From: Arachidicoccus sp.
GTDB taxonomy: Bacteria > Bacteroidota > Bacteroidia > Chitinophagales > Chitinophagaceae
Direction of reading: 5' to 3'
Length of the DNA stretch: 64,000 nucleotides
NCBI GenBank assembly: GCA_028283605.1
Contig: JAPWKH010000009.1
Span: 62,001-126,000, forward strand
Below are positions 22,653 through 38,602 of this stretch, piece by piece. Under the pieces are notes generated by a model. The model did not search any database. It had not been told where the DNA came from and saw only the letters and a list, made by a program, of their open reading frames with translations. Each line of letters begins with the position of its first letter. The first letter of the stretch is position 1. A program made the position numbers and the translations under genes.

Positions 22653-25600
22653 ATGTTTTTTTTAAAATTTTTGATTACTTGCAAAATAAAGTATAGGTTC
22701 TGCTTCTTTGCATTATTTATATGTTTCATTATACACATTGATAGTATTGCTCAATCATCTTCTCAAAATTATATTGCCACCTGGACAGCGACAGCACCAG
22801 TGACTGATCCTGCTGTGCTAATCACAAAACCATTATCTGACGTAAAACTATCTGTAGCTTATTTTGATGGGCTTGGCAGACCATTACAATCCATAGCCAA
22901 ACAAGGGTCTTTAGTAACAGCAACAGGCGCTTCAGGAGATATCGTCACGCCGACTGCGTATGATGAGTTTGGAAGAGAATCGGTAAAATATCTGCCCTAT
23001 GTATCTACTATTTCTCAAGATGGCAGCTATAAATCCAATGCAGTTACTGAACAGCCATCTTGGTACGGTACAGCTGCAAGCCCTATTACAGGACAAGCAG
23101 GTGAAGACCCAAACACAGCTTTCAGTCAGATTGTTTATGAAGCTTCTCCTTTGAACAGGGTCTTAGAAACCATGGCTCCAGGTAAAAGCTGGGTAGGGAG
23201 CAGTGTGGGTGTATCTCAAGGCTATTGGATTAATACAGATGCAGATGGGGTACGAATTTGGGATATTGGTTATCAAACAACCTTGGGAACAGATGGCTTT
23301 ATTACGCCTACTTCCTCTAGAGCATATGATGAAGGTACATTGTATAAGAATATTACAACCGATGAAGCAGGGCATCAGGTCATAGAGTTTAAAGACAAGG
23401 AAAATCATGTTGTACTCAAGAAAGTGCAGTTAAAAGAGGGTGTTACGGACAATGGCAATGGTAGCGGACATGGCGATTGGGCTTGTACTTATTATATCTA
23501 TGATGATTTAGGTAATTTACGTTGTGTCATTCAGCCTCAGGGAGTAGATGCTATGAATACCGCCAATAGCTGGGTGCTTACATCTGATTTATTAACAGAA
23601 CAATGTTTTCGTTATGAATATGACGAACGCAATCGTATGATCATGAAACAAGTGCCTGGTGCCGATCCAGTGTACATGGTCTATGATAACAGAGACAGGC
23701 TCTGCTTGACACAGGATGGCAATATGCGTCCAGATAATAAATGGATCGGAACCGCTTATGATAACCTTAACCGTCCTATAGGTACGGCTTTCTATAATAG
23801 TGGGGGCAGTACCTTTAATTCTATTCTGCAAAATATAGGATCAACCTTTGATGTTCCTTATAATGTGGGCAATCTTCCTACAGGTAATGATTTACTCACG
23901 ATTACGCACTATGACAACTATGATGGATTGCCAGGAGGATTATCTGCTACTTATCTCCCTAACTGGAATAATTATTTTGATCAGAATACTGCTATTTATC
24001 CTTATGCTGAAATCCGTCCTCAAGCAACAAGCTCAACCAATGTGACTACACAAGGTTTGGTTACCTGGACATCGATTAATACATTCGGCAGCGCAACACC
24101 AACGATGTTGCATTCTGTATCTATCTATGACGACAAAGGAAGAATTATACAGGTGCAGAGCAAGAATATAACAGGAGGTACTGATGTAGCTACTACCCAA
24201 TACACTTGGACGGGTCAGCCTTATATCGTTATCAATCAAATAGAGAATGCTAAGCAACTGGGTGCGCAAACAACGGTAACTGTTACGAAGATGACTTATG
24301 ATGATTTAGGCAGAGTGGTAAAAACAGAAATGAAAGCGGCAAACAATTTGATTGGTACGGGAACTATGCCTAATGATTACGTTACGCTTTCTGAAATACA
24401 ATATGATGCTTTAGGAGAAGTACAATATAAAAAACTGGGCAATCAAAAAACGAGTGCTACAGTTTATAATAGCAATAATCCTTTAGAGACGCAAACCTAT
24501 GAATATAATATCCGTGGTTGGTTATTGGGGGTCAACAGGGCTTATGCAAGGGATGGCCAGACCACCGATAATTCAATGGGGATGACCGGTGATGGTGAAG
24601 CAATGACTGATTGTGGCAATTGTGGTACAGTTGCGGTTACTTATCTAGGTAATAACTATTTTGGGTTTGATTTGGGCTATGATAAAATAGATAACAACCT
24701 TATAAATGGAGAAAAATATGCGCACAGCCAGTTAACAGGTAATATTGCCGGTATGGTATGGAAGAGTGCTCAGGATAGAAAGGTGCGCAAATATGATTTT
24801 ACATACGATCCAATGAACAGGCTAACCGATGCAGAATTTAATCAATATACAGGCAGCACATTCAATCGAGATGAAGGAATCAACTATTCCATGAGTATTT
24901 CTCAATATGATAATAATGGAAATATTAAATATTTAAAACAAAATGGATTGATATCTTCAGGAAATTCTCCAATTATTGATGATTTAATTTATACTTATCG
25001 AAAAGGTGGGTTAAGCAACAAATTATCAAGTGTTGCAGACGGGATAATCAATAATGCGAGTGAGCGATTGGGAGATTTTCAGGATGGACATCAGGGTGAT
25101 GATGATTATGACTATGATCCTAATGGTAATCTAACAAAGGACTTGAATAAAAATATTACTTCTATTTCTTATAATGTATTAAATTTACCCATAGACATTA
25201 AAGTTGGTGATAATGGCAGCACAGGAATTATCCATTATATTTATGACGCAGCGGGCAATAAATTGCAGAAGCAGACAACAGATAATGCCTCTAATAGTAT
25301 AAAAGTTGCTACTTATATTGGCATGGAGGTGTTTGAAGCCTCTTATCCGATTAATGGTACACCAACCGAAGATGTCTTACAGTTCTTTGGCACAAGTGAA
25401 GGCAGGGCGAGGCCCAATGCGGCAAACAATGCTTTTGTATATGATTACTTCATGAAGGATCATCTGGGCAATACGAGAATGGTGATTACGGATGATTACA
25501 ATGTGGCTTCTCCCATTCTCGAAGCGACGAGTTATTATCCTTTCGGTCTCCAACAAAAGGGAATAGGACTCACACAACAAGCTAATCCGTTACACAATAA

Positions 25601-26609
25601 ATACACATATAACGGAAAGGAACTCCAAGAAGACCTTAATCTTGATGAGTACGATTATGGTGCACGCTTTTACGATGCGCAGATTGGGAGATTCTCTATA
25701 CAAGACCCGTCGGCAATCAAATATGCGCCCATGTCACCATATGCCTATTGTGGCGGTAATCCAATTAAATTTATTGACCCGACAGGAATGGATTATATAC
25801 CGGGTGGCGGTGAAGGTGGTGGAGACCTATATACTGGAGCAGATGCGCAAGCAGTTTTTATGCAACTTCAGCAAATGTATAGTGGTCAAAACAATGATGG
25901 AGGTGGTGATAAAGGAGAAAATGGAGACCAAGGAGGGGGTGGCGCATGGAAAGTTACTAATAAGTGGAACTCTAAATATATTTCACAATTCCAACAACAA
26001 CTATCAAGCGAGCTTAAAAAACTAATTTACTCTGACCAAACTTTTACATGTGATGATTTAGCCCTACAATTAGTAATTCAATTTGCAAGCAGTAATAATC
26101 TGCCCTTTAAATGGGTTACTGGTTCGGGAACATTTGATGCAACAGACAGTAAATACAGCAATATAAGTGATTTTCTTTCTGATATTAAGACACATTCAGG
26201 AGCTCCAGATTTTGCAAATGATGCAAATACAACATTAAGTTCTCTAAATGGTGCTCAACCGGGTACATTAGATGTGCTTACTGCAAAAGGCAATAAAGTA
26301 CCCAATCACATACAAGTAGTAACCTCTGTTTTAGGTAATGGACCTTCTATGTCAAATGGAATGCAAGAAAGCAGAAATGTTATAATGGCACAAGGAAATT
26401 ACACTACACAAATACCATTCACATGGAGAATTTTCGCAGGAAATAACCCCAATAGTTTTAATTATCCGGGAGTACCAATCCAGGCTGGTATATTTAATGT
26501 ATCAAGTAATACATGGGTATCACCTCAAACAGGAAGTACAAGCAATTTTCTTGGGGGACACTATTCAAACCAATTCAGAAACTTCAATTTTTTAAATTGG
26601 AATAAATGA
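22653..26609 (+). CDS. Secreted DUF6443/RHS repeat protein with C-terminal cysteine-hydrolase-like toxin tip
   Basis: A 1318-aa protein with a signal peptide ending IDSIAQ, a DUF6443 start (NYIATWTATAPVTDPA; LSVAYFDGLGRPLQSIAKQG), many YD repeats and the RHS core end (LDEYDYGARFYDAQIGRF, then SPYAYCGGNPIKFIDPTGM). A Gly-rich linker then leads to a variable tip of about 230 residues. The tip has TCDDLALQLVIQFA (Cys1133) and, about 86 residues on, NHIQVV (His1219), the Cys/His pattern of papain-fold NlpC/P60 or CHAP hydrolases. A role in cleaving peptidoglycan or protein of rivals is inferred. This is the only one of three tips here attached to a complete RHS body. Confidence 0.8.
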   Translation: MFFLKFLITCKIKYRFCFFALFICFIIHIDSIAQSSSQNYIATWTATAPVTDPAVLITKPLSDVKLSVAYFDGLGRPLQSIAKQGSLVTATGASGDIVTPTAYDEFGRESVKYLPYVSTISQDGSYKSNAVTEQPSWYGTAASPITGQAGEDPNTAFSQIVYEASPLNRVLETMAPGKSWVGSSVGVSQGYWINTDADGVRIWDIGYQTTLGTDGFITPTSSRAYDEGTLYKNITTDEAGHQVIEFKDKENHVVLKKVQLKEGVTDNGNGSGHGDWACTYYIYDDLGNLRCVIQPQGVDAMNTANSWVLTSDLLTEQCFRYEYDERNRMIMKQVPGADPVYMVYDNRDRLCLTQDGNMRPDNKWIGTAYDNLNRPIGTAFYNSGGSTFNSILQNIGSTFDVPYNVGNLPTGNDLLTITHYDNYDGLPGGLSATYLPNWNNYFDQNTAIYPYAEIRPQATSSTNVTTQGLVTWTSINTFGSATPTMLHSVSIYDDKGRIIQVQSKNITGGTDVATTQYTWTGQPYIVINQIENAKQLGAQTTVTVTKMTYDDLGRVVKTEMKAANNLIGTGTMPNDYVTLSEIQYDALGEVQYKKLGNQKTSATVYNSNNPLETQTYEYNIRGWLLGVNRAYARDGQTTDNSMGMTGDGEAMTDCGNCGTVAVTYLGNNYFGFDLGYDKIDNNLINGEKYAHSQLTGNIAGMVWKSAQDRKVRKYDFTYDPMNRLTDAEFNQYTGSTFNRDEGINYSMSISQYDNNGNIKYLKQNGLISSGNSPIIDDLIYTYRKGGLSNKLSSVADGIINNASERLGDFQDGHQGDDDYDYDPNGNLTKDLNKNITSISYNVLNLPIDIKVGDNGSTGIIHYIYDAAGNKLQKQTTDNASNSIKVATYIGMEVFEASYPINGTPTEDVLQFFGTSEGRARPNAANNAFVYDYFMKDHLGNTRMVITDDYNVASPILEATSYYPFGLQQKGIGLTQQANPLHNKYTYNGKELQEDLNLDEYDYGARFYDAQIGRFSIQDPSAIKYAPMSPYAYCGGNPIKFIDPTGMDYIPGGGEGGGDLYTGADAQAVFMQLQQMYSGQNNDGGGDKGENGDQGGGGAWKVTNKWNSKYISQFQQQLSSELKKLIYSDQTFTCDDLALQLVIQFASSNNLPFKWVTGSGTFDATDSKYSNISDFLSDIKTHSGAPDFANDANTTLSSLNGAQPGTLDVLTAKGNKVPNHIQVVTSVLGNGPSMSNGMQESRNVIMAQGNYTTQIPFTWRIFAGNNPNSFNYPGVPIQAGIFNVSSNTWVSPQTGSTSNFLGGHYSNQFRNFNFLNWNK

Positions 26610-26616
26610 TAACAAT

Positions 26617-26931
26617 ATGAAATGTATAATTGTAAAGCCTGTTAGTAAATTGATTTTTTTTAATTCTATTATACCTTTCTTTATTATTATTTTCAATTAT
26701 TTAGAAAACATATTAATCAATGGAGAGAGGTTCATATCAGTAAAGTATAGATTAATGATGTCTGATTATGGAGGCTATTTGATAATAGTTCAAATAATAG
26801 TTTCAATTGTATCTTTTTTTATATGGAAAAAAAGAAAGTACAGAGCAATAATCGTTATAATTTTTTTATTTTGGATTTTAATTGAATTTATTATAAACCG
26901 AGCCATACCAAATATGGGTATTTACGATTAA
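26617..26931 (+). CDS. Small membrane protein, candidate immunity protein of the intact RHS tip
   Basis: A 104-aa protein with three hydrophobic helices (about residues 10-28, 53-70 and 76-96) and a short basic loop. It begins 7 bp after the toxin gene, the position expected of an immunity gene. No family is recognised. A membrane location would suit protection against an effector acting in the envelope. Confidence 0.55.
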   Translation: MKCIIVKPVSKLIFFNSIIPFFIIIFNYLENILINGERFISVKYRLMMSDYGGYLIIVQIIVSIVSFFIWKKRKYRAIIVIIFLFWILIEFIINRAIPNMGIYD

Positions 26932-26966
26932 GCTGCAACCTTGCTCGGCGATAGTTCCGTTGCACC

Positions 26967-26996
26967 GCAACCTCTATGAACATTCTATAATGTAGC
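26967..26996 (+). repeat. Cassette tail sequence, copy 1
   Basis: GCAACCTCTATGAAC followed by an AT-rich stretch recurs, slightly diverged, at 29459 (GCAACCTCTACGAAC). Both copies directly follow a tip/immunity pair and precede a terminator. Confidence 0.5.
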
Positions 26997-27026
26997 TTTC
27001 TGCTATTCGCCACAAACATATACACG

Positions 27027-27052
27027 AGCCGCTTTACGAGCGGCTTTATCAT
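27027..27052 (+). terminator. Terminator after RHS/immunity cassette 1
   Basis: AGCCGCT (27027-27033) pairs with AGCGGCT (27039-27045), followed by TTATCATTTT. It may work in both directions, serving the HTH remnant as well. Confidence 0.65.
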
Positions 27053-27053
27053 T

Positions 27054-27191
27054 TTATTTTTTCTCGTGTAAAAGTTTTTCTATTAAAGCATCTTTTTCTT
27101 TGAGCATCCGTTCGTAGAGTTCAACAACTTTGTCGATGGGGTTAAATGTCGGGTTATAAAACACAACCTCTTCGATATTGTAAGTTCCCAT
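27054..27191 (-). pseudogene. Remnant of an HTH regulator C-terminus
   Basis: Forty-five codons (MGTYNIEEVVFYNPT... KVVELYERMLKEKDALIEKLL) look like the C-terminal tail of small XRE-type regulators of Bacteroidota, which end in a charged coiled coil. The helix-turn-helix part is missing. Upstream of 27191 the frame runs into antisense of an RHS gene, so the N-terminus was lost at a recombination junction. It probably has no function now. Confidence 0.5.
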
Positions 27192-28773
27192 GACACAGAA
27201 CGGATTATTGTCGACAGGTACGTCACAAACCATCGACAACCTCACTTACAGCTATAATACCAACAGCAACAAATTGGCAAAGGTGACCGATGCGGCAATA
27301 AACGACAGCGCAGAGCATCTGGGCGATTTTCAAAACGGGGTCAACACAGGCGACGACTACGCCTATGATGCTAATGGCAATCTAACGCAGGATCTGAATA
27401 AAAATATTTCCTCGATAGCATATAACTACTTAAATTTACCCAAGGTTATCACGGTAGCAAACAAGGGCGTTATCCGGTATTATTATGATGCTGCTGGCAA
27501 TAAGCTACAAAAGATTACTACTGACAATGTATCTAATACCAATAAGGTAACAACTTATATCGGTAGTGAGGTTTTTGAAAATAGTTATCCAGCCGGTGGT
27601 ACACAACGTGTAGATACCTTACGGTTCTTTGGCACGACAGAAGGCAGAGCAAGGATTAATAATGGCGGCTTTGTGTACGATTATTTCCTGAAGGATCATT
27701 TGGGTAATACCCGTATGGTGATTACGGATGACTATAACGTGGCAAGTCCGATATTGGAAGCTACCAGTTATTATCCATTCGGGTTGGTGCAATCAGGCAT
27801 TTCTCTCGCGGCTTCTGCACAAAATCAAAGAAATAAATATTTATATAACGGCAAAGAACTGCAATCACAGGAGTTTGCTGATGGTAGCGGTTTAGATGAA
27901 TATGATTACGGAGCAAGAATGCAAGACCCACAGTTAGGCGTTTGGCATAATCCTGACCCATTAGCTGATTTCTCTCGGAGATGGTCGCCATATGCCTACA
28001 CGATGGATAATCCCCTACGATTTATTGATGCTGATGGAATGTGGACTACTCAAGCAGATGGAAGTGAATATACAGAAGACCCGACAGATATAAGCAATCT
28101 TCTAAATAGCGTAAAAGACGGCTCTTTTGACGCAAATAGCTACGACTATAATGACAATGATAATACTCTCTCGCTTACGGTAACTTCAATCAGAGGAGAT
28201 GCGGATGGAACTTTAGGAGCATATAATACTGATTCTCAAAAAGGATTAGATAATAATTTAAACGCGAAACATAGTAAGATAAATCCTCGAACTCATAAAA
28301 GGGAATATGGGGATTTTTCAGAAAATGTTGTTGCTTTTGAAAATGGCAAACCCAAAATTTTTGATGGAGGAGATTTATTAGCTATGTCATCTTTGCATTT
28401 AAAAACAGGAAAAGATACGCCAGACCCCAGTAATTATCTTGACTCTCGATTATATCCCTATTTTGTTTTAACCGCAGATTTTGCGAAAAAGAATGGCATT
28501 AAAATTGGCGATATTGCAATGGTAGAAGACTTAGACCATGGCTACAAATTTTTTGCTATTTATGGTGATAACGGTCCGAATGTATTTACAGAGGGGTCAA
28601 TTAAACTGCAACAAAATTTGGGTCATAGCGAAATTACTGATGCAAGACACACTATAACTGGCAACTTTAGGTTTACCATCTTTAAGCAATCAGGTAAGGG
28701 GCAAGCACAGTACATATCTCCGTCTGAAATTCAAACTCTTGGGGCAAAATTAGAGGCACAATATTTAAAATAA
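27190..28773 (+). CDS. Headless RHS tip cassette with GH75 chitosanase-like domain
   Basis: A 527-aa frame beginning abruptly inside RHS repeats: its first residues (QNGLLSTGTSQTIDNLTY) match the interior of the 22653 gene near 24938. There is no signal peptide or DUF6443 region, so it is a displaced 3' fragment. The core ends GVWHNPDPLADFSRRWSPYAY...DNPLRFIDADG. The tip (about residues 385-527) has DGGDLLAMSSLHL, SRLYPYFVLTADFAKKNGIKIGD (in part), AIYGDNGP (Asp460) and TEGS (Glu468), the pattern of GH75 chitosanases. Such a tip could cut wall or capsule glycans. As it stands the fragment is probably silent unless recombined onto an RHS body. Confidence 0.7.
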   Translation: MTQNGLLSTGTSQTIDNLTYSYNTNSNKLAKVTDAAINDSAEHLGDFQNGVNTGDDYAYDANGNLTQDLNKNISSIAYNYLNLPKVITVANKGVIRYYYDAAGNKLQKITTDNVSNTNKVTTYIGSEVFENSYPAGGTQRVDTLRFFGTTEGRARINNGGFVYDYFLKDHLGNTRMVITDDYNVASPILEATSYYPFGLVQSGISLAASAQNQRNKYLYNGKELQSQEFADGSGLDEYDYGARMQDPQLGVWHNPDPLADFSRRWSPYAYTMDNPLRFIDADGMWTTQADGSEYTEDPTDISNLLNSVKDGSFDANSYDYNDNDNTLSLTVTSIRGDADGTLGAYNTDSQKGLDNNLNAKHSKINPRTHKREYGDFSENVVAFENGKPKIFDGGDLLAMSSLHLKTGKDTPDPSNYLDSRLYPYFVLTADFAKKNGIKIGDIAMVEDLDHGYKFFAIYGDNGPNVFTEGSIKLQQNLGHSEITDARHTITGNFRFTIFKQSGKGQAQYISPSEIQTLGAKLEAQYLK

Positions 28774-29488: not shown

Positions 29489-29510
29489 ATTCGGATAAAT
29501 TTATAAATAC

Positions 29511-29530
29511 AAGCCCCGTGAGGGGCTTTT
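29511..29530 (+). terminator. Terminator between cassette 2 and the mobile unit
   Basis: AAGCCCC-GTGA-GGGGCTT followed by TT. The symmetric flanks suggest it also ends the convergent XRE gene. Confidence 0.75.
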
Positions 29531-29533
29531 GTT

Positions 29534-29896
29534 TTATACGTTAGTGAGAACATTACTCAGTGCATCTTTCATTTTCTTTTTGCCGAGAAAGGCATCCAGC
29601 ACGGCGAAGAAAGCGGTTTTTTCTTTTTTGTCTAACTGTTCAATGAGGGCGATTTTTTCCATGAGTGTTTTATCAAAAGAATTTACATCATTAAAAAGTT
29701 CATCGGCTTTAAACAAATCATACAACGGCACACCGAGCGCTTTAGCAATCTTCACCACAGAAGAAAACGCAGGGTCTGTTTTATTGTTTTCAATCTTGCT
29801 GTAATTGCTGTTATCAATCTTGCAGGCTAACGCCACTTCTTTTTGCGATAAGCCTTTTGCTTCTCTTACTTTTTTAATACTACTGCCCAAGTCCAT
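29534..29896 (-). CDS. XRE-family transcriptional regulator
   Basis: A 120-aa protein with an N-terminal Cro/CI-type helix-turn-helix (SIKKVREAKGLSQKEVALACKIDNSNYSKIEN, quoted in parts: GLSQKEVALACKID, NYSKIENNKTDP) and a helical C-terminal part that may dimerise. It is divergent from the ATPase gene. Two copies of a partly palindromic 12-mer overlap the ATPase promoter and are likely operators, making this the element's repressor. Its own -7 box is at 29920-29927. Confidence 0.9.
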   Translation of the reverse strand: MDLGSSIKKVREAKGLSQKEVALACKIDNSNYSKIENNKTDPAFSSVVKIAKALGVPLYDLFKADELFNDVNSFDKTLMEKIALIEQLDKKEKTAFFAVLDAFLGKKKMKDALSNVLTNV

Positions 29897-29919
29897 TATA
29901 TAAAGGTTTTAAACACAAA

Positions 29920-29927
29920 CAAAGCTA
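29920..29927 (-). promoter_or_regulatory. -7 element of the XRE gene
   Basis: On the minus strand TAGCTTTG matches the consensus and lies 24 bp before the ATG at 29896. A TTG is 23 bp further upstream, slightly too far. Confidence 0.4.
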
Positions 29928-29976
29928 TATTTTATTAGCGTATAAAACCACAACAAGAGATAAGGTGTAAAATATA

Positions 29977-30025
29977 TTTGGTAAATAAACCCATTTTATT
30001 ATTTTTGTAATTGGGTAAATAAACC
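29977..30025 (+). promoter_or_regulatory. ATPase promoter with twin operators
   Basis: TTTG (29977-29980), 19-bp spacer, TATTTTTG (30000-30007): a consensus promoter with its start near 30014. GGTAAATAAACC occurs twice, at 29980-29991 between the promoter elements and at 30014-30025 on the transcription start, 34 bp apart (about three helical turns). Binding by the divergent XRE protein would block initiation. Confidence 0.7.
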
Positions 30026-30038
30026 AAAAAATATTTTT

Positions 30039-31676
30039 ATGGACTTAAAGCTAAACATCAGCAATCCTGAAGCCATCACTTACCGCACCGAAGAAATCGC
30101 CTACACGATTTTAGGCGGGATAAGATTAGAAGGCTTGGACAGGCTGCGGGTAACGATAAAAGTTGAAGTGGTAAACCGCAAGTTCCAGCACTACTTAAAC
30201 AATCCCGATATTGCAGCATTGGCGATACGGCAGAACTTGGATTTATACAGCATCACGCAAACAGAAAAGCTGGCAAGATTAATCGCAGACCGTTTGGAAG
30301 TAGGCGTAACGGCAGTAAGCAAAGACTTATCCGACATTACCAACGAGTTGGAAAAATACAGGCTGCAACAAATAGAACAGCAACAACAAGAGCAGAGCAA
30401 AACCATTAAACCACTTACAGAACAAGAACGCAATGCAGCAACAGCATTTTTGCAAAGCAAAAACTTATTGCAAGCAACAAACGAACTCATCGGAAAATCG
30501 GGCATTGTAGGCGAAGAACTGAACAGACTTATTGCATGGTTAATTTTTACGAGCAGAAAAACCAACAAGCCTTTACATATCATCAGCATGGGCAGCAGCG
30601 GCACAGGCAAATCGCACTTACAAGAGAAAGTCAGCGAACTAATACCCGATGAAGATAAAATAGAAATTACAGCACTCACAGAAAATGCGTTCTACTATTT
30701 TGATAAAGCGGAGCTTGGACATAAACTTATTTTGATTGAAGATTTAGACGGCATCTGGAGCGCATTATATCCGTTGAGAGAATTACAAAGCAAGCAACGC
30801 ATCAGCAAAACAGTAACGATAAAAGATAAAAACGGCAACACCAAAACCATACATTTAAAAGTGTACGGACCTGTATGTATTGCAGGTTGTACAACGAAAG
30901 AGAGTATTTATGAAGATAACGCCAACCGATGCTTTTTAATCAATCTTGATGAAACAAGCGAGCAGGACGAAAGAATAATGCACTATCAACGGAAATTATC
31001 CGCAGGCAAAATCAACAGCGATGAAGAAACAAAAGCAAAGCAGTTGTTGCAAAATGTACAAAGAACATTGCAGCCTGTAACCGTTATCAATCCTTATGCA
31101 GAGTTGTTGCAGATACCCAAAGAAGTTTTTAAACAAAGAAGAACCAATGCACATTACTTAGCTTTTATTGAAGTCATCACTTTTTACAAGCAATACCAAA
31201 GAGAACAGAAAGTACATGAAGATACAGGCGAAGTGTTTATAGAAACAACCATTGAAGATATTGCAGAAGCCAACGAACTATTAAAACAAATCCTATTGAG
31301 AAAATCCGATGAACTGAACGGAGCGACCAGAAATTATTTTGAGCAGTTAAAACAAATGCTTGCAGCAACGCAACAGAGTGCTTTTACAAACACATCTATA
31401 CGCAATCAGTTAAGAATACCCGTCAGCAGCGTAAAGCGTTACCATGCGGCTTTATTAGCATCGGGAATGATACGCAAAGTAGAGAACAGAAACACAAGAG
31501 CTTTTTATTATGAAATCGTAACAGCCGAAGAATATGTACAACTGCAAAGCAGCATCAGCACTGCATTAGATGAAGCATTGCAACGGCTCAACAGTTCAAC
31601 AACAGCCCAAACGAAAAATGAGCCAAGAAAGACAAAGCAAATCAAAGCGTTAGAAGCACAGCCCACAACAGTTTAA
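30039..31676 (+). CDS. AAA+ ATPase/primase-helicase-like protein of the mobile unit
   Basis: A 545-aa protein. The N-terminal 130 residues resemble the module that precedes ATPases in Bacteroidota primase-like proteins, and end in a Gln-rich coil. The ATPase domain has Walker A GSSGTGKS (185-192), Walker B LILIEDLDG (Glu234, Asp235) and an ESIYEDNANRCFLINLD sensor/arginine-finger region. Near 430-490 a winged-helix segment follows (TNTSIRNQLRIPVSSVKRYHAAL). It may load or unwind DNA during transfer or replication of the element, or assist the recombinases. The precise family could not be named. The next gene starts 28 bp downstream. Confidence 0.65.
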   Translation: MDLKLNISNPEAITYRTEEIAYTILGGIRLEGLDRLRVTIKVEVVNRKFQHYLNNPDIAALAIRQNLDLYSITQTEKLARLIADRLEVGVTAVSKDLSDITNELEKYRLQQIEQQQQEQSKTIKPLTEQERNAATAFLQSKNLLQATNELIGKSGIVGEELNRLIAWLIFTSRKTNKPLHIISMGSSGTGKSHLQEKVSELIPDEDKIEITALTENAFYYFDKAELGHKLILIEDLDGIWSALYPLRELQSKQRISKTVTIKDKNGNTKTIHLKVYGPVCIAGCTTKESIYEDNANRCFLINLDETSEQDERIMHYQRKLSAGKINSDEETKAKQLLQNVQRTLQPVTVINPYAELLQIPKEVFKQRRTNAHYLAFIEVITFYKQYQREQKVHEDTGEVFIETTIEDIAEANELLKQILLRKSDELNGATRNYFEQLKQMLAATQQSAFTNTSIRNQLRIPVSSVKRYHAALLASGMIRKVENRNTRAFYYEIVTAEEYVQLQSSISTALDEALQRLNSSTTAQTKNEPRKTKQIKALEAQPTTV

Positions 31677-31704
31677 GAACACATACCGCTAAAAATATTT
31701 TACG

Positions 31705-32685
31705 ATGAAACAACTTGCTTTACAAAGCGAAGCGTACAGATATATCATTGCCTCTTTTAAAGAATGGCTGCAAACATTAGGTTACAGCAGGCAAATCGTT
31801 TATCAGTTGCCCAATTACATACAGGAATTTTTATACTATGCGGAAAGCAAAGGATATGCAGGCTTGTTCCAACTGGACAACGACCTGATGAAAGAACATT
31901 ATTACCGACTGAAAGAACGAACCAATCAAAGACGCGGCGGCGGGTTAAGCCCTGCGTACCTGAATAAGCATTTAGAAGCGTTGCAAAAGTTCGGCGATTA
32001 TCTACGGCAAAACGGAAGATTGCTGTTGCCGAAGTTAGACATACAAACCGAAGCCGCCCGCCATGAAATAACCGACCTACTTACCCAAGAAGAAATCAAA
32101 CAGATTTTTGCAGTAACACAGTTGCCGTATGAACAAAAGAAAAATGATAAAGGCATGGTGTTTTATGAAGCGATGCAGTTAAGAGATAAAGCCATGCTCA
32201 CCGTATTTTACAGTTGCGGCATGAGAAGAAACGAAGTGTATCACTTAGATATTGGCGACATCATTTTTGAAAAACACTTACTGCACGTAAGAAAAGCAAA
32301 GGGTTATAAAGAAAGGTTTGTTCCGCTAACCCAACAGAGTTTGCAGCACTTACAAAATTATTTATACGATGCAAGACCTTACTTCACGAGCGATAAGAAC
32401 GAAGCGTTTTTTGTAACGCATTACGGCAAACGATTAGGCGACCAGCAAATGTTCCTGCGGTTAAAAGCATTGATACAATTAACAGGGAATGCAGAACTGA
32501 TGCAAAAGAATATACATCTTCATACGTTACGGCACAGCATAGCAACACATCTTCTGCAAAACGGAATGAAGTTAGAACGCATCAAAGATTTTTTAGGACA
32601 CAGCAGCTTAGAGAGCACACAGATATACACACATTTTATTGAACATGAGAAAACAAATCATTATGAACAGGACATACAACTATGA
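31705..32685 (+). CDS. Tyrosine recombinase 1 (XerC/D-like)
   Basis: A 326-aa site-specific recombinase with an N-terminal SAM-like core-binding domain (residues 10-100) and a C-terminal catalytic domain. The catalytic set is complete: Arg in CGMRRNEV, the HTLRHS box (HxxR), the LGHSS histidine, and Tyr308 in STQIYTHF. It would cut and rejoin DNA through a 3'-phosphotyrosine intermediate. Its last 23 bases overlap the preferred start of the second recombinase, so the two are translationally coupled and may form a heteromeric complex like XerC/XerD. Confidence 0.92.
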   Translation: MKQLALQSEAYRYIIASFKEWLQTLGYSRQIVYQLPNYIQEFLYYAESKGYAGLFQLDNDLMKEHYYRLKERTNQRRGGGLSPAYLNKHLEALQKFGDYLRQNGRLLLPKLDIQTEAARHEITDLLTQEEIKQIFAVTQLPYEQKKNDKGMVFYEAMQLRDKAMLTVFYSCGMRRNEVYHLDIGDIIFEKHLLHVRKAKGYKERFVPLTQQSLQHLQNYLYDARPYFTSDKNEAFFVTHYGKRLGDQQMFLRLKALIQLTGNAELMQKNIHLHTLRHSIATHLLQNGMKLERIKDFLGHSSLESTQIYTHFIEHEKTNHYEQDIQL

Positions 32686-33595
32686 TAAGTTTAAAGAATG
32701 GCTTCAATTGAAAAAGTACAGCCCCGCTACCATCAAAAGCATTGTTGCAAGAGTGGATTACTTTAATCATTGGGCGCAAAGAGAAAATATCAGCGAACCC
32801 GAAGAAGCGCGTTATCAGGATGCCGTGCTGTTTATAGCCTGGTGCAGCAAGCACGGCGCATCACAAAAAACGATTGCCAATTACTTAACCCACATACGGA
32901 AGTTTTACCAGTTCTTAATCAGCGAAGGAACGATAAAGGAAAACCCTGTTGCACATATCAAAGTACAAGGCATTAAAAGAAAAGTGCTGCACGACATCTT
33001 AACACAGGAAGAACTGCAAACGCTCTGCAATCAATATCCGACAACGATTGAATATGAAGCGGGAAAAATCATACCGCCGCAAGAAAAAAATATTTTATCA
33101 AGGAAAAGAAATAAAGCAATCCTAAGCCTGTTAATTTATCAAGGGTTAAGAGTGGAAGAAGTTGCGGCATTGAATATACAAGACCTGCAGTTAAGAGAAG
33201 GAAAAATAACGATACACAGCCAGAGAAGAACGGCAGCAAGGACAATGAAATTAGAAAGCCATCAGGTGTATGAGCTGATGGATTATATACATGGAACAAG
33301 AAAATCTTTTTTACAAGCGCATGGCACAACGGATAAATTATTTTTGCAATGGCGCAGGAGCGGTAACTTTCACAGCATTACGCAAATGCTGTTGGTGCAT
33401 CTTAGAAAAATCAATCATCGTATAAAAAACATTGACCAGATACGCGCATCCGTAATTACCGCGTGGCTCAAACAATACGACCTTAGAAAAGTGCAATATC
33501 TGGCAGGACATAAATACGTCAGTTCAACGGAAGATTATAAAGTAAATGTGATAGATGAACTGCAAGATGATGTAACAAAATATCATCCGTTGTAA
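32663..33595 (+). CDS. Tyrosine recombinase 2, atypical catalytic box
   Basis: About 310 aa from the ATG at 32663 (an in-frame ATG at 32639 adds 8 residues with a deeper overlap). The core-binding domain begins YDKFKEWLQLKKYSPATI. In the catalytic domain the first Arg (GLRVEEVAAL), the box-II Arg (DQIRASVITAW), the LAGHKY histidine and a Tyr (STEDYKVN) are kept, but the usual His before box-II Arg is Asp and the His after it is Ala. It may be a regulatory or specialised partner of recombinase 1, or active with altered chemistry. Confidence 0.85.
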   Translation: MNRTYNYDKFKEWLQLKKYSPATIKSIVARVDYFNHWAQRENISEPEEARYQDAVLFIAWCSKHGASQKTIANYLTHIRKFYQFLISEGTIKENPVAHIKVQGIKRKVLHDILTQEELQTLCNQYPTTIEYEAGKIIPPQEKNILSRKRNKAILSLLIYQGLRVEEVAALNIQDLQLREGKITIHSQRRTAARTMKLESHQVYELMDYIHGTRKSFLQAHGTTDKLFLQWRRSGNFHSITQMLLVHLRKINHRIKNIDQIRASVITAWLKQYDLRKVQYLAGHKYVSSTEDYKVNVIDELQDDVTKYHPL

Positions 33596-33607
33596 GAAGA
33601 AATTGGA

Positions 33608-33626
33608 GGTCACAAATTGTGATACC
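33608..33626. promoter_or_regulatory. Palindromic operator-like site upstream of the ORF6N gene
   Basis: TCACAA-A-TTGTGA is a perfect palindrome (33610-33622) followed by TACC. The same TCACA...TGTGATACC sequence occurs inside the ORF6N coding region at 33885-33909. Confidence 0.5.
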
Positions 33627-33674
33627 CAATTATAAGAACAATTACTTTTACACATCGATAAAAGCATTGAAAAG

Positions 33675-34235
33675 ATGGCAAAGCAGGAATTACAGGCATT
33701 GGTAGCGGAACAAAAAATATTGAATAAAATCTATGTGGTACGCGGGGAAAAAATTATGCTGGACAGAGACCTTGCGGAATTGTACGGCGTAGAAACCAGA
33801 GTTTTAAAGCAAGCTGTCAAAAGAAACATAGAACGCTTCCCGAAAGATTTTATGTTCGAGATGACAAGCAAGGAAATCGACGGCATGGTATCACAAAATG
33901 TGATACCATCAAAAAGTTATTTTGGCGGTGCAACGCCCTTTTGTTTTACGGAGCAGGGCGTAACCATGTTATCCTGTATTTTAAACAGTAAAATCGCTAT
34001 TGAAGTAAACATACGCATCATAAGAGTTTTTGTGAAGGTGCGCGAGTATGCGCTTACCCATAAGGAAATCCTGATGCAGCTTGCGAAAATGGAAAAAGAA
34101 ATCGTGAGCAGTAACAAGAATATTGAGCGCAACAGCAAAGACATTGAAAATATTTTTATGGTGCTGAAAGAGCTGATAGAAAAGCAAAGCGCCAATCCGC
34201 CCAGAAATAAAATCGGCTTTAAGCCAAACGATTAA
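33675..34235 (+). CDS. ORF6N-domain DNA-binding protein
   Basis: A 186-aa protein with an N-terminal ORF6N (KilA-N-related) domain: YVVRGEKIMLDRDLAELYGV, the TRVLKQAVKRNIERFPKDFMF stretch (quoted in parts) and TPFCFTEQGVTMLSCIL. A C-terminal coiled coil with EKEIVSSNKNIERNSKDIEN follows. ORF6N proteins are common cargo of phages and integrative elements and are thought to regulate or modulate DNA transactions; a precise role is not known. A palindrome before the gene recurs inside it. Confidence 0.85.
   Translation: MAKQELQALVAEQKILNKIYVVRGEKIMLDRDLAELYGVETRVLKQAVKRNIERFPKDFMFEMTSKEIDGMVSQNVIPSKSYFGGATPFCFTEQGVTMLSCILNSKIAIEVNIRIIRVFVKVREYALTHKEILMQLAKMEKEIVSSNKNIERNSKDIENIFMVLKELIEKQSANPPRNKIGFKPND
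33885..33909. repeat. Perfect inverted repeat inside the ORF6N coding region
   Basis: ATGGTATCACA (33885-33895) and TGTGATACCAT (33899-33909) are perfect 11-bp arms around AAA. It encodes residues around MVSQNVIP and resembles the palindrome in front of the gene. Confidence 0.6.
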
Positions 34236-35083
34236 TCCCAACCCACGCACGGCACGGCTTGCAGCAAGCTGACGCACAAAACCAAAGTGTTGCTGCCCTG
34301 CAGTCTTGCCGCCCCGCTGATTATTTTTTGCCGCTTGCCTTTGCTTCGTGCGGCACATTGCCTATCGTCAAAGAGCCGCACAGCCCACGCTTCACAAGCC
34401 GCAAAAAAGCCCGCACACAGGCGGAAGCTACGTTAAACATAAGGTTGCCTTATAGGAGCATCCACCCTGTGCGCAAGCCCTGCGGGACTTGTCTGCGCTG
34501 TGTCTGTCCTATAAGAACCTTATGTTAAGTAGCCAAGATCGCAGACAACAAAAAAAATAAAACGCCTTTTCACAGAACCAATGCTGTGTTTTATTTTTTG
34601 TGGAAGCCGTGCCCTCGCTGGCGCTGCAAAGAAGCGGTGTGGCAAAGCCACGAGTGAGCAGTACACCTCACTCCGTTCAGGCAAGTGTAAAGCCTGCGGC
34701 AGCAAGGCATGGCGAAGCCATTGCATTTTATTTTTTAAATGATGCAAGTTGCTGAATACTGTCGCAGCCGCCGCAGGCTGCATCAATGTTGAAGTGCGTA
34801 CAGGCGGCTTTGACCGCACAAAAAACAATAACGATTGCCTGCATGATGAGTAAATAAAGGCAAACAATCGGGCGTCAATCATTATTATTTTTATGTGCCC
34901 CGATTTTTATTCTGATATTGAAATAATTTTATCGGAATGATAAAAAGAATTATTTTTATCAAAGTTCTTTGATGCTGGAGGTACGCAGGAAAAATTTGTT
35001 GTTTGTTGGAAGCAAGAGCATGTAAAAATCGTAATTTTTTTGAAAGGGTACTTGGCAAAACGGAAAATCTGTTGAAAAGTGTG
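34236..35083. other. GC-rich, hairpin-rich non-coding end of the mobile unit
   Basis: About 850 bp with visibly higher GC than its surroundings and no convincing gene. Short palindromes abound (for example GTGGCAAAGCCAC near 34638 and GCAGCCGCCGCAGGCTGC near 34767). The open frames at 34259-34528 (+) and 34520-34882 (-) have no recognisable domain and look incidental. It may be an origin, transfer site or structured RNA, or recombination end DNA. Confidence 0.5.
34433..34528. repeat. Long imperfect inverted repeat in the non-coding end
   Basis: The arm at 34433-34457 (containing AACATAAGGTT and CTTATAGGA) is mirrored at 34507-34528 (TCCTATAAG, AACCTTATGTT) with a 2-nt bulge. The 49-bp centre is itself partly self-complementary, so a cruciform or long stem-loop could form. 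Confidence 0.6.
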
Positions 35084-35090
35084 AGTTAAC

Positions 35091-36047
35091 TATTATCCAT
35101 TCGGGCTACAACAGAAGGGAATAGGATTAACGCAACAAACTAATCCACTGCACAATAAGTATACTTATAACGGTAAGGAACTTCAAGAAGACTTAGGTCT
35201 TGACCAATACGATTATGGCGCAAGAATGCAAGACCCACAACTCGGCGTTTGGCACAATCTTGACCCGCTTGCTGAAAACAATCGTCGGTGGACACCATAT
35301 GCTTATGCCGCAGACAATCCGATTAAATTTATAGACCCTGACGGAATGGATTATACCACAAGCGACCCGAATGAGATTGCACAAATTCTTAATCAGGTAC
35401 AAAATGGAACTTTTAATGCTGCCGATTATGATAAAGGAGATGATAACCCAATATCTCCAACAATGAGGAGTATGCTTGATTATATTTATGATAAGGAGGG
35501 AAGAGGTTTTGAAGACGAATCATCCCACCCGCCAACAGACCAGCCGACAAAATTCGGTATAGATATGGCAACATTTAAGTTGAGTGCTAAAAGTATTTTA
35601 GGCATTGACCCGACACTTGAAAATTTACAGAAATTAACACAAGACCAAGCAGATGCTTTTTATGTTAAGTATTATTTTCAAAGATTTAATTTAGATAAGA
35701 TAAATAATTTACCTGTTTTAAAAGCGCTCTTTTCTCAAGAGCCACTTGGAGAATACAGAATGGTAGTAAATGCTAAGAAAGCATTAAACGATATTACGCA
35801 AAGCAATTACTCAACAAATGCGCAGGCGTTTAGTGATGCAGAAGTTTCGGCTTTAAATTCCGTAGATGCAACACCTTATATTTACTCGTTTGCAACATAC
35901 CAATACCAAAGTTATGAGAGCATTTATGATGGCAATCCTGCAAAATACGGAGCATACATAGATGGATGGATAAATAGGCTTAATGAGTTGTTAGATGATA
36001 AACAAAAAAACTTTACATCCCCTAAGCAAAAAAAATCAGGCAAGTGA
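35091..36047 (+). pseudogene. Headless RHS tip cassette with GH108 muramidase-like domain
   Basis: RHS homology starts abruptly near 35084-35091 (YYPFGLQQKGIGLTQQ, same frame as the following 273-codon ORF from 35226) and runs through the core end (QYDYGARMQDPQLGVWHN, DNPIKFIDPDGM) into a tip. The tip has DYIYDKEGRGFED, TKFGIDMATFK, LTQDQADAFYVKYYF and YIDGWINRLNELL, the order seen in GH108 N-acetylmuramidases plus their PG-binding tail; the catalytic Glu would be Glu91 counted from 35226. No start codon, signal peptide or RHS body remains upstream. It is probably silent unless recombined. Confidence 0.65.
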
Positions 36048-36544
36048 AAAGAGTAACATTATTTTTAAGTTGTGTATTATTTATTTGTTGTTCTACTAAG
36101 AGTAGTTCAAAGAAAACAAATAGTTTTTCGATTAAACATACTGCGGAAAAGAAATTAGATTCTTTTCCAATTAGTAAATTGGCAGGTGGTTGGTGTTGGA
36201 GTGTTAAAGATTCTATTGATTTCAGTATTACTCTCGTTGTCAAACATGATAGTATTTTTGGCGAATACTCCAGCATTGTATCCAATGGTAAGTACTTAAA
36301 TACTGATGATGACCAAAAAATATGGGCATTTAAAATTCCATATACTATAATACTTGATACGTCAAAGTATTTTCCAATTACCAATTTTTATGATAATTCA
36401 ACGGCTCATTTAAAAATTGAGTTTGATGAAAAAAATGACGTATTAATATGGAAATTGCAAGAAGACAATGACAATACTCCATTTTTGCCACATTACGCCA
36501 CACTTCATCGTTGCAAAGAAGCTAATGTTGATGGGTTTCAGTAG
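36044..36544 (+). CDS. Putative lipoprotein, candidate immunity protein of the GH108-like tip
   Basis: A 166-aa protein starting at GTG, which overlaps the stop codon of the RHS cassette (GTGA), implying translational coupling. The start is a lipoprotein-like signal (LFLSCVLFICCS). The mature part is beta-rich (SKLAGGWCWSVKDSIDF, HDSIFGEYSSIV) with no recognised family. An envelope anchor and tight coupling to a muramidase-like tip support an immunity role. Confidence 0.55.
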   Translation: MKRVTLFLSCVLFICCSTKSSSKKTNSFSIKHTAEKKLDSFPISKLAGGWCWSVKDSIDFSITLVVKHDSIFGEYSSIVSNGKYLNTDDDQKIWAFKIPYTIILDTSKYFPITNFYDNSTAHLKIEFDEKNDVLIWKLQEDNDNTPFLPHYATLHRCKEANVDGFQ

Positions 36545-36716
36545 AGTGTAGATAGATAAATTTTAGATAAACGATATAACCAAAATCACTCCATCGAGCG
36601 GCTTTTTTTGTCTTTAAATCATCTGCAATAAAAAAGTTTTCCACATTTTATATTTTTCGGCTGTAACCCTTTCTGCGCTTGCGTTTCAGCCGTTTTTTAC
36701 GTTCTCTTTGTCCACC
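36545..36716 (+). other. Region between cassette 3 and the inverted-repeat block
   Basis: No gene. CGGCTG (36658-36663) pairs with CAGCCG (36687-36692), followed by six T, a terminator-like hairpin with a long loop. GAGCGGCTTTTTTT near 36595 looks like the right half of the terminator used after cassette 1, with its left arm missing. Confidence 0.4.
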
Positions 36717-37657
36717 GCCCGCACTGTCTGCATTTGAACGATTTTGGAGCGGGTTTTTTGGTGGTTTTGGCGGGTGTTTCCGTGTAATTTTTGTGTGGTT
36801 GTTTTTTATGGTTTGCGGTGTTCTTCTTTTTATTTTTTCGGGGGCTTTTTCTGCGGACTGTTTGCAGTCCGTTGTTTAAATTTTTGTGCCTTTGACACGC
36901 CGTTTTTCGGGGCTTTTTTCGGGGGCTTTTTCTTTTTTTATTTCCTGCTCCGCAGGAAAACGGGGCCTTTCGTTTGGCGGAATTTCCGCCGAATATTTTT
37001 TATTGGTTTCGCCATTAGCGCACATTCATCCCGAAATTTCAAGATGAATTTTTTAGTTTTTAGTCGGTCAGTTTTTACAGAAAAATTATTTTTCTGTTCC
37101 ACCGCAAGCGGACAATTTTTTCGGGGGCTTTTTTCGCTGCAATACAGATATATTTTTTGTTTTTCAATCGCCTGAAAGCATTATAAAATTTAACACTTCG
37201 GACATTTTGACGGCTGTTGTTTTTCTTTGTTTTTAATCGTTGTTTTTTATAAATTTTCTTTGCCGAAAATCGGCAAAACAGGTTGCTCTTTGCTCCGACA
37301 CGGAGCAAATTTTTTCGGGGCTTTTTTCTTTCCCACGCCAAAGGCGTGAATGTTTTTTCGGGCTGTTGCAATCCGTATTTTTATTGTATCGTGGCTTCGA
37401 CACTCTTTTTTTTCGGGGGCTTTTCTTCGCTCCGTTGGAGCGATATATTTTTGTTTTGGTGTATGCTGTCGGGCTTTGTTTTCGGAATGTTTTTTTCGAG
37501 TTTTCAGATGCAGTTTTCGGCTCGCTTTCCGTTGTTGCTGCCTTTGGCTTTTCGGGGCTTTTTTTATTTTTTTCGGGGGCTTTTTTCTTTCTTCTTTGTT
37601 TGGTTTTTTGTAGTCTGCCGCCCGCTCCAAAATCGTTCAAATGCAGACAGCGCGGGC
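36717..37657. repeat. Non-coding block bounded by 37-bp inverted repeats, with hairpin and T/G-rich repeat array
   Basis: The 37 bp at 36717-36753 recur as the reverse complement at 37621-37657 with one mismatch. The 941-bp block is T/G-rich on the plus strand and holds about nine copies of TTTTTCGGGG(G)CTTTTTTC (near 36834, 36903, 36915, 37116, 37311, 37352 partial, 37406, 37549 and 37567). Many are next to short perfect hairpins such as CGGACTG/CAGTCCG (36854-36871), TTTCCTG/CAGGAAA (about 36940), TTTGCTCCG/CGGAGCAAA (about 37289) and CACGCC/GGCGTG (about 37334). Reading frames across it are low-complexity and change frame between repeats, so no protein is supported. It may be a non-autonomous element or a structured RNA/DNA region. 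Confidence 0.65.
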
Positions 37658-37774
37658 ATTTTGCTTTTTTCTGTATGTTGATAATTATTTTTTCTTGTTC
37701 CTTATTTACTGCTTTTTTTATTCCTGTTTTCTTATCACTAAACCTTTTATCTATAGTTAAATCAGAATAAACCG

Positions 37775-38602
37775 TCATAAATCAGTGTAAATAAAAAGTT
37801 CTTCAGGAGTATATCCAAATTTCCTTCTGATACTTTTGGCCTGTGCCCATTTCTTTTCTATTGGATTAAGGTCGGGGCTGTAAGGTGGGAGAAACTCCAA
37901 AGGTATGTCCTTGCTTTTGCACAGCCCGCAAAGCATCATCCCGCTTGTGAAATGTTGCATTGTCAAGTACAATAACCGAGTTTGGAGCAATAGCAGGTAA
38001 TAATTGCTGTGTAAGCCAGCCATAGAATACATCGGCATCTATGTTACAATCAAATAAACATACATTGAGTAGCTTGAAGTTTGTTATCGCTCCGATAGCG
38101 TTTAGCCTTCCTCTTGCGTGCCAGTCTTTACAGCCATAACATTTCTTCCCTTTTTGGCTGTAGCCATTTCCTCTGGGCGCATCTACCGAAAACCCACTTT
38201 CATCTAAATAAACAACAGGTCTTTTTTCGATCCGCTCATAGCGCAATAATTTAAGTTGGAAGATAAGCCTGGAGAGTTCATCTGCTTTGGGATGAAACAG
38301 CGTTTTTTTTAGCTGATTCCCAAACGCTTTAGGGCATAAAATATCGTGCTTTGCCCTACCCCAAACTTCCTCGCTCTCTCATATTGATAATGATCCGGAT
38401 GTTGCTCAACATCTTTTCGCAATGCTTCCATATCTATTTTTGTTGAAGGTTTGTTCCGCTTTGTTTTAGGATTTATACATTTTTACCATCTACTCAACGT
38501 CCTTATGGGAATACCAAATCTTTCTGCAGTTTCTTGAAATGTGAGCTTTTCCTGACGCTTAATCTTAAATAATTGTTTGCGGAAATCTATAGAATACGAC
38601 AT
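37775..38602 (-). pseudogene. Degenerate IS630-family transposase
   Basis: From the ATG at 38602 the protein begins SYSIDFRKQLFKIKRQEKL, an IS630-type HTH. It is interrupted by an in-frame TAA at 38483-38485 where Lys is expected, then continues (INPKTKRNKPSTKIDMEAL). A stop and frame change follow near 38309, then the catalytic core (VVYLDESGF, VIVLDNATFHKR). Another frame change near 37918-37926 precedes the end (PPYSPDLNPIEKKW). All three DDE residues are still recognisable, but at least three lesions make it non-functional. Its upstream end is cut by the IS3 element at 38603. Confidence 0.85.

Follow-up and report, generated by a model that had tools for sequence, protein, structure and literature searches.

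Both elements bounded by inverted repeats and large structured RNAs are familiar from bacterial genomes. MITEs and foldback elements are non-coding and have inverted ends that match within each copy, and REP/BIME mosaics are arrays of short hairpins that follow a gene. Among the large RNAs, GOLLD, ROOL and OLE are patchy in their occurrence. These three are large, ornate bacterial RNAs with many hairpins and no encoded protein (PMC12286853). Rhs loci carry exchangeable C-terminal cassettes (PMC3967940, PMC10539506). As far as literature listings on Rhs, long inverted repeats and bacterial foldback elements go, they mention no structured non-coding block.

We analysed a 64,000-nucleotide stretch of Arachidicoccus sp. 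DNA (the window), in which an earlier sequence-only reading had pointed to a non-coding block at 36717-37657. The near-perfect 37-bp terminal inverted repeats described there are present: they pair in 36 of 37 positions, with one mismatch and 867 nt between them, and include a perfect stretch of 30 nt that is the longest perfect inverted repeat of the window for arms up to 3 kb apart (the runners-up have 17 nt). Between the arms the plus strand is T-rich, with an AT skew as low as -0.76 in 200-nt windows, in agreement with the strand asymmetry claimed before. The many short perfect hairpins were likewise recovered. With a stem of at least 6, at least 3 G-C pairs and a loop of 3-5, the block holds 7, compared with a mean of 0.2 and a maximum of 2 in 200 shuffles and a maximum of 2 in 61 other stretches of the window; three-nucleotide loops are found in six of the seven. 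The block also contains eight copies of an unpaired motif resembling TTTTTTCGGGGGCTTTTTT, three of these one G shorter (Table 1). All five exact matches to TTTTTCGGGGNCTTTT in the host genome fall inside the block. Of the four matches with one mismatch, two are likewise inside it and the remaining two are isolated elsewhere. The block, present in one copy in this genome, looks like a real yet unexplained genetic element of ~1 kb with inverted ends and a hairpin-rich interior.

Table 1. Parts of the element and the genes before it, in window positions. L074 is the locus that holds the related element.
Feature	Position	Strand	Remark
Rhs core (35091-35348) and C-terminal region matching Glyco_hydro_108	35091-36047	+	
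Small gene after the Rhs gene	36044-36544	+	putative immunity gene by position alone; no family match
Left outer arm	36600-36716	.	decayed in the window; homologous to L074 arm; contains TTTTCCACA (36637-36645)
Left terminal inverted repeat	36717-36753	+	37 nt
Motif copy 1	36834-36849	+	TTTTTCGGGGGCTTTT
Hairpin	36854-36871	.	CGGACTG-TTTG-CAGTCCG
Motif copy 2	36903-36917	+	one G fewer
Motif copy 3	36915-36930	+	
Hairpin	36941-36959	.	TTTCCTGC-TCC-GCAGGAAA
Hairpin	36976-36990	.	GGCGGA-ATT-TCCGCC; stem core identical in L074
Hairpin of 11 pairs	37024-37049	-	full closure on the minus strand only (2 G-U pairs)
Motif copy 4	37117-37132	+	within 20 nt, starting at 37116, that L074 shares unchanged
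Conserved unpaired core	37184-37211	.	15 nt at 37197-37211 (TTCGGACATTTTGAC) identical in L074
Hairpin	37259-37277	.	TTTGCCGA-AAA-TCGGCAAA; same stem in L074
Hairpin	37289-37309	.	TTTGCTCCG-ACA-CGGAGCAAA; same stem core in L074
Motif copy 5	37311-37325	+	one G fewer
Hairpin	37334-37348	.	CACGCC-AAA-GGCGTG; L074 counterpart has another stem, CTGTGC-TTC-GCACAG
Module	37353-37457	.	80% match to L074:2072-2176; differently placed in the order
Motif copy 6	37409-37424	+	
Hairpin	37427-37443	.	TCGCTCC-GTT-GGAGCGA
Motif copy 7	37549-37562	+	one G fewer
Motif copy 8	37569-37584	+	
Right terminal inverted repeat	37621-37657	-	37 nt
Right outer arm	37658-37715	.	decayed and shortened; approximate limit

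An exact scan of a species-genome collection with a 19-nt motif returned 44 loci, one of which was a true relative and the sole one found: L074:1791-2907, from a Flavobacteriaceae MAG (isolate Pmx449_bin11), where it too is single-copy. Its nhmmer score was 989 bits, against at most 16.3 bits for the other 43 loci, which were rejected. The best blastn piece between the two elements reached 120 bits, whereas the window element shuffled 100 times never exceeded 40.1, and 609 of 989 aligned positions agree in the full alignment. The L074 element has 9 hairpins, two being its terminator-like end hairpins (shuffle mean 0.4), and arms of 170 nt that are 98% complementary, outside which lie further terminator-like arms of 31 nt (84%). 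The order of parts is largely common to both: a motif and hairpins come first, then a motif, the unpaired core, two hairpins whose stems are almost alike in both elements, a motif, a hairpin and a last motif. It is broken in one place, where a module stands elsewhere in the sequence of parts (Table 1), and modules have therefore been duplicated or moved. Identity is complete around the fourth motif copy and in part of the core. At one hairpin position, by contrast with the conserved stretches on either side, L074 carries a different stem.

The two hosts are very distant, at about 80% 16S identity by proxy: the window host is 79.8% identical, over a 1573-position aligned stretch covering the 16S, to a genome chosen as a relative of the L074 host (G790), the 16S of the L074 host itself not having been found. 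A relative with matching anatomy in so distant a host supports the presence of a real element. The comparison also suggests that the element extends beyond the block first outlined, to ~36600 on the left and ~37715 on the right; the terminal repeats of the earlier reading stand, and what it overlooked are the outer arms, recognisable and decayed in the window. That each host has a single copy speaks against a simple multi-copy MITE, and the copy number, hairpin excess and non-coding interior support the earlier opinion that the block is too large and ordered for one.

Long open frames occur in the element since stop codons are rare on a strongly skewed strand, A being scarce on plus and T on minus. 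A minus-strand protein gene, decayed or of an unusual kind, would account for an open frame of 181 aa, and in one minus frame the two elements give similar peptides ending in KKAPEK (25/43 residues). However, across a 130-nt ungapped segment common to both, substitutions are spread 14/9/9 over the codon positions, without codon-phase bias, and peptide identity hardly differs among the six frames (22-26 of 42-43). The L074 frame is moreover interrupted by a stop inside the shared segment, motif spacing disrupts the frame, and the 181-aa ORF has no Pfam match. The codon-position test of the shared segment thus largely refutes a protein gene, a reading we consider very improbable, and agrees with the original statement that nothing inside looks like a gene.

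The genomic setting had been overlooked in the sequence-only reading. The block sits after an Rhs gene, at the end of a toxin-gene (Rhs) cluster, and both elements come after an Rhs gene plus a small downstream gene. In L074 these two lie to the left and the genes on the right read towards the element, with Rhs cores confirmed at both flanks. Immediately ahead of the L074 element, the small gene has a Peptidase_M23 match that barely exceeds the cut-off (28.8 bits vs 28.7), and for this reason we do not call it an immunity gene. Over L074:1-8000, Rhs and small genes converge on the element, two of them with Peptidase_M23 matches.

Several features of the surrounding window were recorded alongside. 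Three Rhs cores stand in a row, since 22653-28773, upstream, encodes a large Rhs protein (DUF6443) and holds another Rhs core. Between two Rhs cores, 29500-35090 appears to be a separate mobile element, with a 545-aa protein lacking a Pfam match, two tandem tyrosine recombinases, an ORF6N protein and a segment that seems to be non-coding; where it ends on the right, the next Rhs fragment begins. Adjoining the ORF6N gene, ~850 bp at 34235-35086 show no clear gene and, by eye, seemingly many inverted words. To the right of the block a transposon end starts near 37752, with a DDE_3 match behind it; six further copies of this end are scattered over the genome, and we take it to be IS630-like. Within 37752-38246, which takes in this end and the DDE_3 transposase piece, the reading is split over several overlapping short frames, and this is therefore probably a broken copy.

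Another reading is a transcription stop or an insulator that ends the Rhs locus, with the unit of hairpin and T-run repeated many times on the plus strand. The L074 element lies between converging genes with Rhs cores on both sides, and terminator-like sites exceed the shuffle mean in both cases: 9 for the window (8 on plus; mean 2.5) and 15 for L074 (13 on plus; mean 4.1). Yet with so much T on this strand any hairpin will look like a terminator, the redundancy would be unneeded, and the arms, the G-rich motif and the core would be left unexplained. We regard a stop or insulator as improbable.

We then asked how widespread the element is. No third member was found across the genome searches made, whose genome sets overlap. 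The exact 17-nt motif gave none in 396 genomes of the order (three had one isolated match each) and none in 296 relatives of the L074 host, both counts including the host; a search of this exact kind passes over any member whose motif had changed. Across the phylum (395 genomes), allowing one mismatch in the 18-nt motif gave 1-2 isolated matches in 19 others and no member, and the core pattern with up to 3 mismatches gave one weak match in each of 3 others, compared with matches in 4 for the reversed control. Of 234 family genomes, 198 had a match at E<=1 to a sequence model (R1) that gave the window element itself 169 bits; the best place elsewhere scored 23.9 bits (E 1.2e-4) and no member was seen. 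Fourteen other R1 loci were rejected at no more than 8.9 bits by nhmmer, and all four of those examined further span an open frame of 314-410 aa in mid-locus. Motif, arm and core patterns had 0 matches in viral contigs, 15 + 1 further viral-contig loci gave no nhmmer match above 0.8 bits, and neither element was matched in plasmids and phages.

Individual candidates were rejected on inspection. The four weak DNA matches in relatives (L014-L017) had, by eye, neither a motif cluster nor a hairpin array. Two or three motif copies (up to 2 mismatches) are held by 8 of the 43 loci other than L074 from the motif scan. L037, when read, proved to be a tandem repeat; L049, read individually, is not a relative; and the T-rich stretches of L054 and L067 appear by eye to be coding. 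An AT-skew screen flagged none of three loci with weak core-pattern matches (L076-L078).

We also surveyed Rhs regions. Among 199 genomes related to the L074 host, 112 have an Rhs core. In 40 hand-picked regions from 30 of these 112 genomes, two of the regions coming from the L074 host, no relative was seen, and nhmmer listed none of the loci L100-L169 (70 in all). Seven of these loci stood out in a skew scan, and block-like sequence was absent from the parts read of two of the seven. Other Rhs regions fetched from the window's own genome had no comparably skewed block. These negative surveys mean that Rhs loci do not regularly include the block, and with n=2 members its association with Rhs could still be chance.

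The chief competitor of an RNA reading is a non-autonomous mobile DNA element of foldback type with long terminal inverted repeats. Its arms would be recognised by a transposase or recombinase from elsewhere, or would pair when single-stranded, and its interior would be DNA signal or filler. Such an element accounts for the arms and for the patchiness: the arms are alike within each element (97% of 37, 98% of 170) and identical at 23 of 37 inner-arm positions between elements, and the two hosts are very distant, with no member in the searched relatives. A 170-nt arm at 98%, furthermore, exceeds the needs of a closing stem and suits DNA better. On the other hand, each host has one copy, both copies follow Rhs genes, and the order of the interior and its unpaired sequence are conserved. 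No target duplication was seen by eye flanking either the window block or the L074 element, the outer limits being uncertain, and no transposase with matching ends was found, the only arm copies in either genome being the element's own. We hold mobile DNA to be a possible, if unlikely, explanation.

The arms speak to more than one reading. At 13 of the 14 inner-arm positions that differ between the elements, the change is present in both arms, which argues that the element works as a folded single strand; n=2 elements are too few for covariation statistics, DNA would give the same pattern, and selection for pairing, arm-to-arm conversion or a shared binding enzyme could each be the cause. Each L074 arm also contains TTATCCACA and TTTTCCACA, which we take to resemble DnaA boxes, and the first of these aligns with TTTTCCACA at 36637 of the window. 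This alignment, together with the T-rich strand, would fit a DNA site for replication or recombination, whether origin-like or an anchor for Rhs-cassette exchange. The DnaA-box-like pattern TTWTCCACA is enriched in L074, occurring twice per arm and 5 times in 8 kb vs 0.27 expected. In the window, however, its number is at chance level (2 vs 1.78 expected), and there is one copy only of the element in each host, so that we judge a site of this kind quite improbable.

Folding was compared with that of 20 shuffles each. RNA folding gave z values of -3.8 (plus) and -3.05 (minus) for the window and -3.06 (plus) and -7.9 (minus) for L074. DNA folding also beat its shuffles, with z of -2.98 and -6.65 for the two elements, and RNA is therefore not singled out. 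Wobble pairs in the hairpins lean to the minus strand, with 4 G-U pairs on minus and 1 on plus summed over both elements, and those in the arms are split between strands: the one mismatch of the window arms would be G-U on minus, and of the three in the L074 arms two would be G-U on plus and the third on neither strand. Read on the minus strand, the linkers would be A-rich and the hairpins free-standing. No promoter stands out above chance. The parts best conserved in sequence are the unpaired motif and the core, some hairpins having kept their sequence too; in the arms and in at least one hairpin the sequence changed and the pairing was kept. Conserved unpaired parts beside paired parts of altered sequence are the pattern that would be expected of a folded strand read by a partner.

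Our preferred reading, to which we give a probability of roughly 35%, is that of a non-coding cassette, placed behind an Rhs gene and acting as a folded single strand, most likely a minus-strand RNA. RNA is preferred because of the A-rich minus-strand linkers with their free hairpins and the 4 vs 1 G-U pairs. The terminal arms would close a long stem, within which short hairpins would space out six to eight unpaired copies of the motif (resembling TTTTTTCGGGGGCTTTTTT on plus and AAAAAAGCCCCCGAAAAAA on minus). The motif copies and the one conserved unpaired core would form a putative binding surface for a partner, the minus-strand RNA may be a scaffold or a sponge, and Rhs loci would take the cassette with them from species to species. 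Action in the folded form, the RNA nature and its strand, the partner and the travel with Rhs are in this way inferred. More tentative is the wider proposal of a new ~1-kb class, of structured non-coding RNA or single-stranded DNA, travelling with polymorphic-toxin (Rhs) loci and combining a long closing stem, insulating hairpins and six to eight nearly identical unpaired binding sites in a putative scaffold or sponge for a protein or an RNA. As for the nature of the block, which the sequence-only reading had placed among a transposon, a structured RNA and a decoy or origin, a non-coding, ordered, real element is what stands, and none of those three is singled out.

If the folded strand is functional, some Rhs loci would carry a non-coding component that was not found described in the literature searched, and its repeated unpaired motif would provide a handle on the partner. 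If the element is mobile DNA, it would be a long-terminal-repeat element with an unusually ordered interior at toxin loci. On either reading, two very distant hosts have in common a structure that ordinary annotation would leave blank.

The window had 0 Rfam matches above gathering score, both elements giving sub-threshold ones only at E<=10, so that the known Rfam RNAs, including GOLLD, ROOL and OLE, were rejected for want of a covariance-model match above gathering score. Like REP/BIME mosaics, the block is an array of short hairpins after a gene, but its hairpins differ from one another, it has terminal arms, and there is one locus per genome; REP/BIME was rejected as an identity, since nothing else in the genome matches the block and the hairpin sequences are not repeated. 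With MITEs and foldback elements it shares a non-coding interior and inverted ends alike within the copy; it differs in being single-copy in both hosts, with no duplication seen, and in its ordered and conserved interior. The cassette-exchanging Rhs loci offer a parallel in position, both elements sitting after an Rhs gene. GOLLD, ROOL and OLE share with the block its large size, its many hairpins, its lack of an encoded protein and its patchy occurrence, whereas the block has no Rfam match and is set apart by very long closing arms and a repeated unpaired motif.
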